From positions 124,001 to 188,000 of the forward strand of contig NZ_JAMXLV010000018.1 of NCBI RefSeq assembly GCF_024054535.1: a stretch of 64,000 nucleotides of DNA, in the 5' to 3' direction. The notes under the pieces are model-generated. The model was not told the origin of the DNA. It ran no database searches and was given only the letters and a program-made list of their open reading frames with translations. Positions 6,042-52,149 of the stretch are shown here, in pieces. Each line of letters opens with the position of its first letter. The first letter of the stretch is position 1. The DNA is from Thermococcus alcaliphilus. GTDB taxonomy: Archaea; Methanobacteriota_B; Thermococci; Thermococcales; Thermococcaceae. A program made the position numbers and the translations under genes.

Positions 6042-6716
6042 CTAAGACACAAAAAGAACTTTCCAATTACTGCCTTCTACTGGTGGTTTAGACAATTTTA
6101 GTGGGTAATATTTTGTCTTATACGGCTTACCCGAGCTTTTTGGTGAATATGGGTTTATCTGCTCAAAGGTTACCTTTGACGAAAAGTCTTTCACAGGATA
6201 TATGTAAGAGCCAGGAGGAATTTCTGATATATCCTCTACGGGAAACAATACTCCTTTTTCAGGCTTGTCAGTCCATTCAACGCGTTTCACATATGCTAAT
6301 GAATCGCTCGTGCCGAAATATCTTATGTTCCTTGCATAGTGTGCTATCTCCTCGGAAACACCATCTGGAAGCCCTAAATAGATTTCAACGTCCTCTGAAA
6401 AGTGAACATACTCCCTGACGCCAAAGCTCTGCTGAAAGCCATACTGATCTTTCTTTTTCTTGAGCCTTTTCACAAAAACGCTGTTGATTGCTATTTCTCT
6501 TGGAGGCTTAATTCCGACTTTGGCATCCCTTATGTAATTGAATGTCATTTTTCCTTCACTAACTTTCCCGCTTATCCTTATGGCTGTTGAAACTATTGCC
6601 AGTTTTACAGTAGATGGGGCTATAAGAGGTAGCGTTAATGCATACTGAGATGAATACTCTGGAATCCTATAGGAGTAGAAAGATGGGAAATGAACGACCA
6701 GCTTAAGCCACCTCAT
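6042..6716 (-). CDS. cas5: Cas5, type I effector backbone protein
   Basis: A 224-residue Cas5, which caps the 5' tag end of the crRNA in Cascade. The N-terminal RAMP strand (MRWLKLVVHFPSFYSYRIP) is followed by the hallmark PLIAPSTVKLAIVSTAIRI segment, the Cas5 motif for a helix after strand one. Length fits Cas5a/Cas5t. The ATG at 6716 follows directly on the cas7 stop (TGAATG) with GGGGGAGAG as ribosome binding site, so it is coupled to cas7 and is the last gene of the effector operon. Confidence 0.9.
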   Translation of the reverse strand: MRWLKLVVHFPSFYSYRIPEYSSQYALTLPLIAPSTVKLAIVSTAIRISGKVSEGKMTFNYIRDAKVGIKPPREIAINSVFVKRLKKKKDQYGFQQSFGVREYVHFSEDVEIYLGLPDGVSEEIAHYARNIRYFGTSDSLAYVKRVEWTDKPEKGVLFPVEDISEIPPGSYIYPVKDFSSKVTFEQINPYSPKSSGKPYKTKYYPLKLSKPPVEGSNWKVLFVS

Positions 6717-47182: not shown

Positions 47183-47245
47183 CACGACTAGGCGGTGGAA
47201 ACCGCGGGATGTTCCGCTCTGCGGAGAACCACAAACAGTGAAGGA
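47183..47245 (+). other. Structured GC-rich leader or small RNA upstream of rpl15e
   Basis: The 5' untranslated stretch of rpl15e holds two hairpins. GCGGT-GGAA-ACCGC (near 47,192-47,205) has a GNRA-type tetraloop. CCGC-TCT-GCGG (near 47,212-47,222) is extended by GTT/AAC across a two-base bulge. It is followed by ACCACAAACAG. It could be a ribosomal-protein-binding leader or a small RNA; H/ACA identity is not supported because no k-turn or guide pocket is clear. Confidence 0.45.
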
Positions 47246-47258
47246 CGAGGTGAAAAAG

Positions 47259-47843
47259 ATGGGAATGTACAAATACATTAGGGAAGCTTGGAAGAGCCCA
47301 AAAAAGAGCTACGTTGGAGAACTCTTGAAGCAGAGGATGATTAAGTGGAGAAGAGAGCCAAGCGTTGTTAGGATTGAGAGACCAACCAGACTTGATAGGG
47401 CTAGAAGTTTAGGCTACCAAGCGAAGCAGGGTTACGTTCTTGTTAGAGTTAGAGTGAGAAAAGGCGGAAGGAAAAGACCAAGGTGGAGGGGCGGAAGAAA
47501 GCCCTCAAAGATGGGTCAAGTTAAGTACTCACCAAAGAAGTCCCTCCAGTGGATTGCTGAGGAAAAAGCTGCGAGAAAGTTCCCCAACCTTGAGGTTCTC
47601 AACTCATATTGGGTTGGCGAGGACGGTATGTACAAGTGGTTTGAGGTTATCTTAGTTGATCCACACCACCCAGTCATCAAGTCAGATCCAAAGATCGCTT
47701 GGATTGCTGGAAAAGCCCACAAGGGTAGGGTCTTTAGAGGGCTCACAAGCGCTGGAAAGAGAAGCAGAGGTCTGCTCAACAAAGGCAAAGGCGCTGAGAA
47801 GGTCAGACCAAGCATTAGGGCTCACAGAGGAAGGGGTAAGTAA
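47259..47843 (+). CDS. rpl15e: Ribosomal protein eL15
   Basis: A 194-residue large-subunit protein. [52 protein letters not shown] and the basic tail AHRGRGK are typical for archaeal/eukaryotic eL15, which binds 23S rRNA. GAGGTGA lies five bases before the ATG at 47,259. The upstream leader is unusually structured. A T-rich stretch after the stop may terminate transcription. Confidence 0.98.
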
Positions 47844-48030: not shown

Positions 48031-49112
48031 ATGGCAAAGTTTGGATTGTGGTATGTTAAATGGGACTCTTTCTTTGGAAGAAAGCTTCTCGCTTCCTTTG
48101 TGCTGTTGTTTTCTTTAGTTGCTCACTCCTTAGTTTATGCCACTCCAACTCTCACCGTTGATTTTTGTTCCTCAGGTTTTCAGGTATCTGTTGCTCCGAC
48201 AACTGAAGGTGTTATCTACGTGAGCACTGGTTTTTATAATCTTAAACCCCAAAACTTTGGGGAGTGCATTGCGGAATATGATCCAACCACTCAGCGTGCC
48301 CACTTTTACCTTGTAAACTCAAGCGGTGCATATCATATTGGTTGGTATTATGAATACGGTTATCAAAACAAACTCTTTCTGAACTTCTGACCAAAGTAAA
48401 GAGAAGTGTCCTTCCAGTGCCTGGAAAACTTGAGGGGGATTATGTGGTATTTTTGTTCAACTCCACCACCTATAAAGTGCCCATCAAAGAGCTTTTATCT
48501 TATTTATGGAGCGGGGATTTGTTAAACAATTTAGTGGCATTTTCTTATGAAGAGGGGATTGTAATCGTTCCATCCGTTAAGATAGATGCCGTTGAAAATA
48601 ACTTTACGGTAATCAAAAGATCCGGAAAGCATGTTGGAACAACTTTGCTGGACTTTAACTTTACATACTGGCTTTCTTATCAGTATCTTCTATACCTAAA
48701 CGGCACCATCGATGGTAGGTTCCTGTTGAATGAAAAAGCGAAGAAAGAACTGATAACTTGGGAAGAACTTTCGCAGTTGTTTGATAAACCGCTCTATGTA
48801 TTTTATTTTGATGGCGAGTCTCTCAAGCCTTATCTCTTGTTGAGGATCAAGATTTCACCGGAGCTAAAAGGGTTCAAACTCTCTATAAAGTACGAATTTG
48901 AGAATTTGGCGCCTCCTTATGCGACGTATAATATACCAATAACCGCCCCTGCTTCCTCTGAACCCAAATCTTTAAACTCCACTGCCAACTCGGGCACATA
49001 TTGTGTCCCGGAAGATACAAAAGAAAACACTTCTTGGATTTTCCTTTTGCTAGTTATAATTGCGAGTGTAGCTTTAATAGGAGGAGCTCTACACCTAAAA
49101 AAGATCAAGTAA
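48031..49112 (+). pseudogene. Frameshifted secreted, membrane-anchored protein gene
   Basis: Two adjoining frames make one protein. The first (48,031-48,390) has 119 codons: a short start MAKFGLWYVKWDSF, a signal peptide (KLLASFVLLFSLVAHSLVYA), then an extracellular domain. At about 48,354-48,390 the reading must move to another frame, where SELLTKVKRSVLPVPGKLEG continues without a stop to 49,112 and ends in a membrane anchor and Lys-rich tail (IFLLLVIIASVALIGGALHLKKIK). Length after repair is about 355 residues. The family is not recognised. A true one-base indel, a sequencing error near AAAACAAACTC, or programmed slippage could explain it. Confidence 0.75.
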
Positions 49113-49162
49113 AGAAGACCAATATAAATCCTGTTTATACTCTTTTATACTCTATATCAGTA

Positions 49163-49183
49163 TTAAAAATCAAAAATTTTAAA
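49163..49183 (+). repeat. Promoter repeat, copy B
   Basis: Second copy of the promoter repeat described at 47,974-47,995; AAATTTTAAAAAG is its TATA box. It drives the gene whose start codon position holds ACG at 49,220. Confidence 0.75.
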
Positions 49184-49219
49184 AAGTGTTATGATATAAC
49201 TACTTATTGAGGTGATATT

Positions 49220-50104
49220 ACGGCCACATATGGATTGTGGTACTTTAAAGCACAAGATGGAAATTATGAAACATTTCCCTCCGCAGGAACACCATCTCAG
49301 CTGAAAGACAGAGGATTTACCTATGCAATAGCTCTGCATTCTGCTGCAAAAGATGAAAATGGGAACTTATTATATGGGAATATTCCGTTTAGTGGATATT
49401 CCTACAACAATGGATACCAAGATGGAGCATCTCTTGGAAGATGGATAGATTCGATACTGAAAGGAATCGATTATTTTGTTGTGGTTCCAGTTCTCATCGA
49501 CGAGAGTAAAACCAGAGGAGTTAGAGGGATACAATACTGGAAAGGATGGATTGACGGAGTATACGATAACACAAGTGGTTATCAAATAGGCTTCTATTGG
49601 TATCTTGAAAATCCATGGCAAGTTAGTGATGGAGTTGTTTATGAGGAAGACATTCAAGAAATCTCAAACTACATTAAAAATAAATGGCAACATTTAATTT
49701 GGATACCATATGTCAACGATAAGATAAACCTAAATAACACTGACATAAAACCCCTGTCAAAATACTTTACTTATGTCTTTGTTCAGCCACATTATTATCA
49801 AAGATGGAAAGAATATTACACTGGAACTTTGGAAGGAGCTCCTAATGAGTATCCCTATTTAACAAGGGGTGTTGATGCACTAGTTGAGATTTTGAATTGG
49901 ATATGGAGCATTCCTAACGGATATATAGAAATGGAAGTAGATGGGACTATTAACTCATACCCAGACCTAATAAATAAGGCATGTGACTATGTTACAGCAC
50001 AAAAGAATTCGGTGGTTGGAGATACTTGGCCACAGAGAGCATATTACTACAATGCTAATACAAACAATGTTGATGAAGTGAGGAATCAATGTCCAGAGTG
50101 GTAA
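49220..50104 (+). CDS. DUF4855-like protein with ACG at the expected start
   Basis: About 294 residues with no signal peptide seen. The body (GIDYFVVVPVLIDES ... GFYWYLENPWQ ... LIWIPYVND ... YFTYVFVQPHYYQRW) resembles the DUF4855 group, often near glycan-related proteins; this is a weak assignment. GAGGTGATATT precedes ACG GCC ACA TAT GGA TTG TGG, aligned to the codon with ATG GCA AAG TTT GGA TTG TGG of the upstream copy. The start codon is therefore ACG, upstream ATT, or a TTG at 49,235. The gene overlaps the next by 16 bases. Confidence 0.68.
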   Translation, partial: TATYGLWYFKAQDGNYETFPSAGTPSQLKDRGFTYAIALHSAAKDENGNLLYGNIPFSGYSYNNGYQDGASLGRWIDSILKGIDYFVVVPVLIDESKTRGVRGIQYWKGWIDGVYDNTSGYQIGFYWYLENPWQVSDGVVYEEDIQEISNYIKNKWQHLIWIPYVNDKINLNNTDIKPLSKYFTYVFVQPHYYQRWKEYYTGTLEGAPNEYPYLTRGVDALVEILNWIWSIPNGYIEMEVDGTINSYPDLINKACDYVTAQKNSVVGDTWPQRAYYYNANTNNVDEVRNQCPEW

Positions 50105-51537
50105 AAGACACTGTCTTTGTTTCTATTCTCTTTCTTCTACTTATCGGCTCTATTCCAGTATCGGCTGGTTGTACTGACAATCTGAAAATCATAAACGCTT
50201 ATTCTGTCGGAGACAAGGTAGCATTCGTGGTTCTCAACACTACATCGAATAAACTTTATGCTCTAACTTACAACGGTTACTCCTTTGAAGTAGAACCACT
50301 TAATTTCACTACATCATATTTAGTGAGACACTGGAACGGCAAGTACTGGCTCCTCCAAAAGGGAAGGCGGGAAACTGTTAGCCTTTACACATACCAGAAT
50401 GGTGTCCTTAGGCTTGTTAAAACTTTTAGTGGGGGTAGCTTATGCACGGATAATGACTTAGAAATTAAGTGGAATGGCAGAGAGTACTTTCTAACTTTTA
50501 TAGAAGCGGGTTCCCATGATGATCCCAACACTGGAGAGTGCACTTTCAAGTTTAAACACTACCTTTTAAAAGATGAAAACCTAGCCCCTCTTAATGTCAC
50601 TGGGCAGGAGCTCTGGATCCCTGCGCTTAACGCTTGGCTCATCGGGGAATCTTTAGTTGATGAGAATGGAAAAGTGCTCGGAGAGTACAACTTCAGTAAA
50701 ACCGGTATATACTCGGTGGGGCTGGCTGTTGATGGTGGCAAAACCTTTCTTGTGGTATCGTCAGATGGAGGATGGGTTCGAGTATTCACTATCAGGAACT
50801 CTTCTCTGGTTTTAATCTACAATCGGAGATTAGAAAAAAGAGAGTTGGGAGAAGGGCCATATCCCCCAAAGGTGTGGATTGGAAAGCCGGTACTTCTCAG
50901 TAGAGATTCGCATAACGAGTCAAGAGTTAATGTATGGTTATTTAACGGCACTGATTTCGTCAAAATACATACCTTTGAAAAATATGCGACACTTTATCCG
51001 GTGACGACCTCCAAGAAAAGTTATATCCTTTCAAGTATCCCAACCATTAAGGGCGTCAAGGACATCCATGTCTTGCTGGAATTATTTGAGATCAGAGGAG
51101 CTTTACTTGTCCAAGTTGGCTCTCTGGAAGTCGAAGGCAATTACCTTAGAGTCATCATGCAGGAATTAGAGGGGTTCCCCGCACCAGGAATTGAGCCTGG
51201 GAGCATGCTTGTAGCTTCTGGAAAGAGTTCAGTTCTTCTGTTTAACTCAACTCACGTATTCAATTTCACATCAGGAAAAAGCATTGAGCTTCTGGATGCC
51301 CTTAAAAACCATGGATACAGGGTAGCGCTTTGCTGTGGAGGATGGATTGTATTTAACGAGAATATGATATATTCCTTTAAAGACGGTAAATTTAAGAACA
51401 TAACTCCGGAGATGCTCTTGGCATTGTCTGAGAGGTCAAAGAACAAGGGTTCTTCGAGAACAGTTATTTTGAGCAGTCTTATGGTTGTGGTAGTTGTTTT
51501 GCTAGTTTTCCTAAAGAAAAAGAAGATAACATTTTGA
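50089..51537 (+). CDS. Secreted, C-terminally anchored large protein of unknown function
   Basis: A 482-residue protein. Residues 8-24 form a signal peptide (FVSILFLLLIGSIPVSAG). The extracellular part is beta-rich with many Asn-x-Ser/Thr sites and recurring WNGKYWLL, WNGREYFLTF, GGWVRVF units that suggest a beta-propeller. A single membrane helix (VILSSLMVVVVVLLVFL) and a Lys tail anchor the C terminus. It starts inside the preceding gene (GTGAGGAATCAATG), so the two are co-translated. No family recognised. Confidence 0.75.
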   Translation: MSRVVKDTVFVSILFLLLIGSIPVSAGCTDNLKIINAYSVGDKVAFVVLNTTSNKLYALTYNGYSFEVEPLNFTTSYLVRHWNGKYWLLQKGRRETVSLYTYQNGVLRLVKTFSGGSLCTDNDLEIKWNGREYFLTFIEAGSHDDPNTGECTFKFKHYLLKDENLAPLNVTGQELWIPALNAWLIGESLVDENGKVLGEYNFSKTGIYSVGLAVDGGKTFLVVSSDGGWVRVFTIRNSSLVLIYNRRLEKRELGEGPYPPKVWIGKPVLLSRDSHNESRVNVWLFNGTDFVKIHTFEKYATLYPVTTSKKSYILSSIPTIKGVKDIHVLLELFEIRGALLVQVGSLEVEGNYLRVIMQELEGFPAPGIEPGSMLVASGKSSVLLFNSTHVFNFTSGKSIELLDALKNHGYRVALCCGGWIVFNENMIYSFKDGKFKNITPEMLLALSERSKNKGSSRTVILSSLMVVVVVLLVFLKKKKITF

Positions 51538-51693: not shown

Positions 51694-52149
51694 ATGGCAA
51701 AGCTTCAGGCTCACCATATAAGAGTGTCAACCTTTGCCCATGCAACCGAGGATCCAGAAAAGGTTCTCGAGGCTATGGGGACTTTTTTTCCAGAGGATAT
51801 TCCTTCTGAGGACATAGAGTTTGAGGTAGTTGAAACCGAAGGCTACTTCGGAAATCCGATAAAGGTCATAAACGCCGAGATAAAGAGAAGCAGAAGTGTA
51901 AAAAAGATGTTGGAGCACATTAAGGGACTTTTAAGCGAAGAGGATAAGGAATATCTTTTAGAAAACCTTGAAGAGAAGGTTGACGATACGGGAACGTTTT
52001 TCATTCGCTTCAACAAACAGAAGGCATACCTAGGAGAGGCGAAGGTTGGTGAAGGAGAAGACGTTATCCAAGTAAAGATAAAGGTCAAAGCATTCCCAAT
52101 GAAAAAGGAAAGCGTTGTGAAGGCAATCAGGGAGTGGTTGAGCGAATGA
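51694..52149 (+). CDS. RNA-binding protein of COG1325 (exosome-associated type)
   Basis: A 151-residue archaeal RNA-binding protein. HHIRVSTFAHATEDPEKVLEAMGTFFPED and GYFGNPIKVINAEIKRSRSVKKMLEHIKGLL match COG1325. In many archaea it sits with RNase P or exosome genes; here rnp3 follows directly, with a four-base overlap. GGGGTGAA precedes the ATG. Its role is probably in RNA processing. Confidence 0.88.
   Translation: MAKLQAHHIRVSTFAHATEDPEKVLEAMGTFFPEDIPSEDIEFEVVETEGYFGNPIKVINAEIKRSRSVKKMLEHIKGLLSEEDKEYLLENLEEKVDDTGTFFIRFNKQKAYLGEAKVGEGEDVIQVKIKVKAFPMKKESVVKAIREWLSE

Follow-up and report, generated by a model that had tools for sequence, protein, structure and literature searches.

Genes that naturally begin at a weak non-AUG codon are exemplified by infC and pcnB of Escherichia coli, both of which start at AUU. 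In these genes, a strong ribosome-binding site and an intact frame accompany a poor start codon that is conserved among relatives and serves regulation. A different precedent is offered by start-codon-loss mutations and the incipient pseudogenes they produce. ACG itself falls, in an E. coli reporter library, in a four-codon group at 0.1-1.5% of ATG (PMC6925171). For archaea, the start codons named in a review are AUG, GUG and UUG, with ACG not mentioned there (PMC7531240), and our literature search found no paper on archaeal ACG starts and no archaeal ACG measurement.

Here, we examine a gene of Thermococcus alcaliphilus that carries ACG at the start-codon position, within a 64,000-nucleotide stretch of the genome (the window, to which all positions refer). 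Its strong ribosome-binding site, poor start codon and open frame recall infC and pcnB, but its ACG is unique to one genome, whereas the AUU starts are conserved and regulatory. With start-codon-loss mutations it shares an apparent single transition at a conserved initiation codon, an otherwise intact gene and a family that is dispensable and decaying elsewhere; it differs in showing no further disabling change so far and in that its silencing is a prediction. Most likely, the gene has recently been weakened or silenced, rather than providing evidence for a new mode of translation start.

The start region and the encoded protein

An earlier note had pointed to an ACG directly behind a ribosome-binding site and heading 294 open codons, and the sequence bears this out: GAGGTGATATT occupies 49209-49219, ACG follows immediately 3' at 49220-49222, and the frame runs on to a TAA at 50102-50104 (Table 1). 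Because the TGA at 49208-49210 shuts the frame upstream, an earlier standard start has no room. An ATT lies in frame at 49217-49219, and no stable structure is predicted for the start region at 80 °C. The ATG at 49230 was rejected as a start, being out of frame and opening just 24 codons.

Table 1. Features of the ACG gene and its surroundings (window coordinates)
Feature	Position	Strand	Basis and remarks
Remnant (17 codons) of a second DUF4855 gene, the 'paralogous copy' of the earlier note	48031-48081	+	tblastn to L018 residues 1-17, 88% identity
Decayed partner gene of the upstream cassette	48086-49112	+	~0.87 kb deletion join; frameshift near 48370; 95.7% identity with the cassette kept intact in G004
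Probable promoter region of the ACG gene (A-rich element, TATA-like AAAATTTTAAAAAG)	49160-49187	+	Alignment with ATG-started orthologues G076, G084 and G051
Upstream in-frame stop TGA	49208-49210	+	Sequence; 3 codons before ACG; bounds N-terminal extension
Ribosome-binding site GAGGTGAT	49209-49216	+	8-base match to GGAGGTGATC; motif and spacing common to ATG/GTG relatives
ACG at the start-codon position	49220-49222	+	25 ATG, 5 GTG and 1 ACG in 31 distinct aligned relatives
Gene for a DUF4855-like TIM-barrel protein (294 codons and a stop), otherwise intact	49220-50104	+	Profile match, model, invariant residues
Candidate secondary start TTG, in frame, disfavoured	49235-49237	+	20 nt from GAGGTG; inside strand 1 of the model
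Partner gene, 482 aa, probably secreted and membrane-anchored	50089-51537	+	Intact orthologues in G082, G007, G084 and G076

The C-terminal half of the protein aligns to the PF16147 (DUF4855) profile at E 4.3e-5 and 23.3 bits, under the gathering cut-off of 27, whereas other members of the family alignment match better, with 21 of 24 aligned Thermococcaceae relatives matching DUF4855 (best E 8.3e-12). The AlphaFold model (pLDDT 91.8, pTM 0.91) predicts a TIM barrel of alternating strands and helices, with strand 1 at residues 2-11. A fold search returned a GH18 chitinase as the best PDB match (E 6.6e-6), in keeping with the barrel expected of a GH18-like glycosidase; the best solved folds, GH18 chitinases and other barrels at TM about 0.5 and 10-13% identity, indicate generic TIM barrels only, and a sequence search against solved structures found nothing. 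All 23 residues invariant in the family are present in the ACG gene, including E239 and D241, which are candidate acidic residues only. A glycosidase-like function would be a guess from the modelled fold.

Ancestry, selection and decay at the locus

Matches to the gene occur in 51 of 94 genomes of the family, and start codons were counted in the 31 distinct copies whose N-terminus could be aligned. All 30 distinct copies other than this one carry a standard codon at the aligned position (ATG or GTG), the pattern expected around an incipient pseudogene, while the conservation that a functional ACG start would predict is found in 0 of the 30. The nearest copies, those of G082 (intact, 95% identity) and G007 (internally deleted, 94% identity), have GAGGTGATATT followed by GTG, and the next-nearest, in G084, G076 and G051, have GTGATATA followed by ATG. 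Since the nearest two have GTG and the outgroups ATG, the parsimonious ancestor is ATG, with one T-to-C change in this genome and one change to GTG in the lineage of G082 and G007.

The coding region itself has diverged under constraint. Against G082, dN is 0.019 and dS 0.162. When changes are polarised by G084, the nonsynonymous and synonymous counts are 7 and 13 here, compared with 4 and 12 on the G082 branch, with no difference between the two branches (Fisher P 0.72). For this branch, a wholly neutral history can be rejected at P values between 4e-5 and 2e-3, according to the transition bias; the estimate for its neutrally evolving share is 0.07-0.11 (interval 0 to 0.3-0.5). These substitution patterns argue that purifying selection acted on this branch and that the gene probably worked for most of it. 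As the branch is not neutral and the invariant residues are kept, either the ACG arose recently or the gene continues to function.

The surroundings indicate how readily such genes are lost. The site is bounded by a gene at 47238-47843, which by eye we take to encode an L15e-like ribosomal protein, and by a small conserved gene at 51694; in seven members of the genus, the site between both flanking conserved genes is empty. In G004, whose flanks are 96% identical, a single deletion (matching 49144-51363) took out the ACG gene's orthologue together with most of the partner. In G004, the upstream cassette is nevertheless intact (L018, L086), the one that is broken in the window, such that the two genomes show reciprocal loss at one locus. 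A C-terminal remnant of the partner is retained in G004, the closest host relative, around position 9730 of L086. Among the other copies, that of G007 has an internal deletion and that of G084 a frameshift.

The upstream cassette of the window (48031-49112) has decayed as well. A deletion of ~0.87 kb fused its DUF4855 gene with its partner into a 119-codon frame, and the partner carries a 1-base frameshift, one A having been lost in a run near 48370. It was this cassette that the earlier note took for a paralogous copy with ATG where the present gene has ACG. The comparison stands as far as the start is concerned, in that GAGGTGACTCA and then ATG are found at 48031 with equal spacing (five bases from GAGGTG to the codon); the copy is not a usable gene, however, consisting of just the first 17 codons of a DUF4855 gene before the deletion join to the partner. 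No other full-length copy was found in this genome. By these sequence comparisons, the gene is dispensable and accessory and the family decays repeatedly at this locus; loss of a start codon is unsurprising in such a setting.

Movement between lineages may accompany this turnover. G082 belongs to another genus of the family, yet its partner gene and that of G007 share about 99% identity, which suggests recent horizontal transfer of DUF4855/partner cassettes. Such cassettes are seen at L046 8013-10321 and L048 9318-11259, their partner genes being about 99% identical across two genera. By eye, there may be a transposase remnant close to the copy in G082.

Competing explanations for the ACG

The earlier note had left four options: true ACG initiation, use of ATT, use of TTG, or a gene switched off by a point change. 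Of these, the switched-off or turned-down gene is favoured because all relatives have ATG or GTG, an ACG start went unseen wherever it was checked, and the family decays at the locus. We regard as probable a recent loss of the start codon from ATG to ACG that leaves trace translation, making the gene a hypomorph or an incipient pseudogene. A T-to-C change would have turned ATG into ACG in an accessory, repeatedly lost DUF4855-type gene. With promoter, ribosome-binding site and coding sequence looking normal, ribosomes would still be recruited; the codon would pair poorly with the initiator tRNA, and initiation would fall to a trace. Further damage would not yet have accumulated, the intact frame being attributable to recency. 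Such a loss would also account for the codon's being found in one genome only, for its inferred ancestry and for the history of the locus. Both the extent of the drop in translation and the recency of the loss are what we infer here. Two observations weigh against start-codon loss: the undamaged coding region fits recent loss and continued function alike, and the very strong ribosome-binding site could support some initiation at ACG.

The latter observation leads to the main alternative, in which ACG works as a start, the 8-base site holding the 30S subunit while initiator Met-tRNA begins there with useful, perhaps intentionally low, efficiency. The intact frame and purifying selection on the branch, the ideal ribosome-binding site and spacing, and the start region without predicted stable structure would all be accommodated. 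A working start would be expected to recur in relatives or elsewhere in the genome, and neither was seen; the archaeal review is silent on ACG, and the gene is dispensable.

The genome survey covered sampled stretches totalling 309 kb, together with pattern searches over the whole genome. The sample contained 109 open reading frames in which a ribosome-binding site of at least 6 bases precedes a standard start (90 ATG, 10 GTG and 9 TTG), and in it the present gene alone had an 8-base site followed directly by a non-standard codon that heads a long frame. Genome-wide, AGGTGAT-N1-5-DTG occurs 177 times against 75 in a reversed-pattern control, whereas AGGTGAT-N1-5-ACG is not enriched (7 against 14). 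The looser pattern GAGGTG-N3-7-ACG has 43 sites in the genome, 13 of which lie outside the set examined; among the sites examined, no further long gene combined a strong ribosome-binding site with ACG. Candidates were rejected for an ATG immediately 3' of the ACG (L096, L114, L116), for lying inside longer frames (L097, L102, L103), or for being antisense to frames that resemble, by eye, PAPS reductase and topoisomerase VI B (L108 and L109). On the minus strand, a candidate non-standard start at 6704 was likewise set aside, an in-frame ATG lying shortly upstream (ATGAGGTGGCTTAAG). There is thus no sign of general ACG usage in this genome.

On balance, a working ACG start is unlikely. The stronger proposal, that the Thermococcales ribosome usefully initiates at ACG behind a well-placed 8-base site and that the gene thereby survived the loss of its ATG, is a little more doubtful still; if true, the gene would be a natural archaeal example of ACG initiation.

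An error of sequencing or assembly, the true base being T, is improbable. The codon is a single substitution away from the ancestral ATG, and the sequence comes from a draft assembly of one strain in 25 contigs, but isolated base errors in assembled genomes are rare, and a true GTG, as in the nearest relatives, would need two adjacent errors.

Use of the TTG at 49235 or the ATT at 49217 is the least probable: both are in frame with no intervening stop, and TTG is a start in 9 of the 109 sampled frames, but this TTG is some 20 nt away from the ribosome-binding site, has no site of its own, would by the model delete residues 1-5 and with them half of barrel strand 1, and is the start in 0 of 30 relatives, while the ATT sits nearly against the ribosome-binding site and is the start in no relative.

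The partner gene and what the locus may mean

Start-codon loss could reach beyond the gene itself. As the earlier note had recognised, the next gene starts within this one, its ATG at 50089 sitting 16 nt inside the ACG gene. By eye, a signal-like N-terminus and a hydrophobic stretch at the C-terminal end can be made out in the partner protein. That reduced translation also lowers the downstream gene, through polarity or coupling, is plausible. By analogy, an untranslated upstream gene could lower transcription of the partner by polarity, an effect reported for Thermococcus (work cited in PMC12548453). The partner has a ribosome-binding-site-like sequence of its own (GTGAGGAATCA, then ATG), and in G007 and G084 it is intact though the upstream frame stops about 140-160 bases before it, such that tight stop-start coupling is not required in those two genomes. 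Along 50089-51537, divergence from G082 rises from 5-13% to 17-27% part-way, a jump that suggests a recombination mosaic.

The locus offers a natural test case, as the start codon alone differs in kind from those of the ATG/GTG relatives, with no apparent change in promoter, ribosome-binding site or frame; it bears on the stringency with which archaeal initiation excludes ACG in vivo. If the gene is silent, it would caution against gene callers that shift the start to TTG, and would document how decay begins in a family that Thermococcaceae quickly gain and lose.
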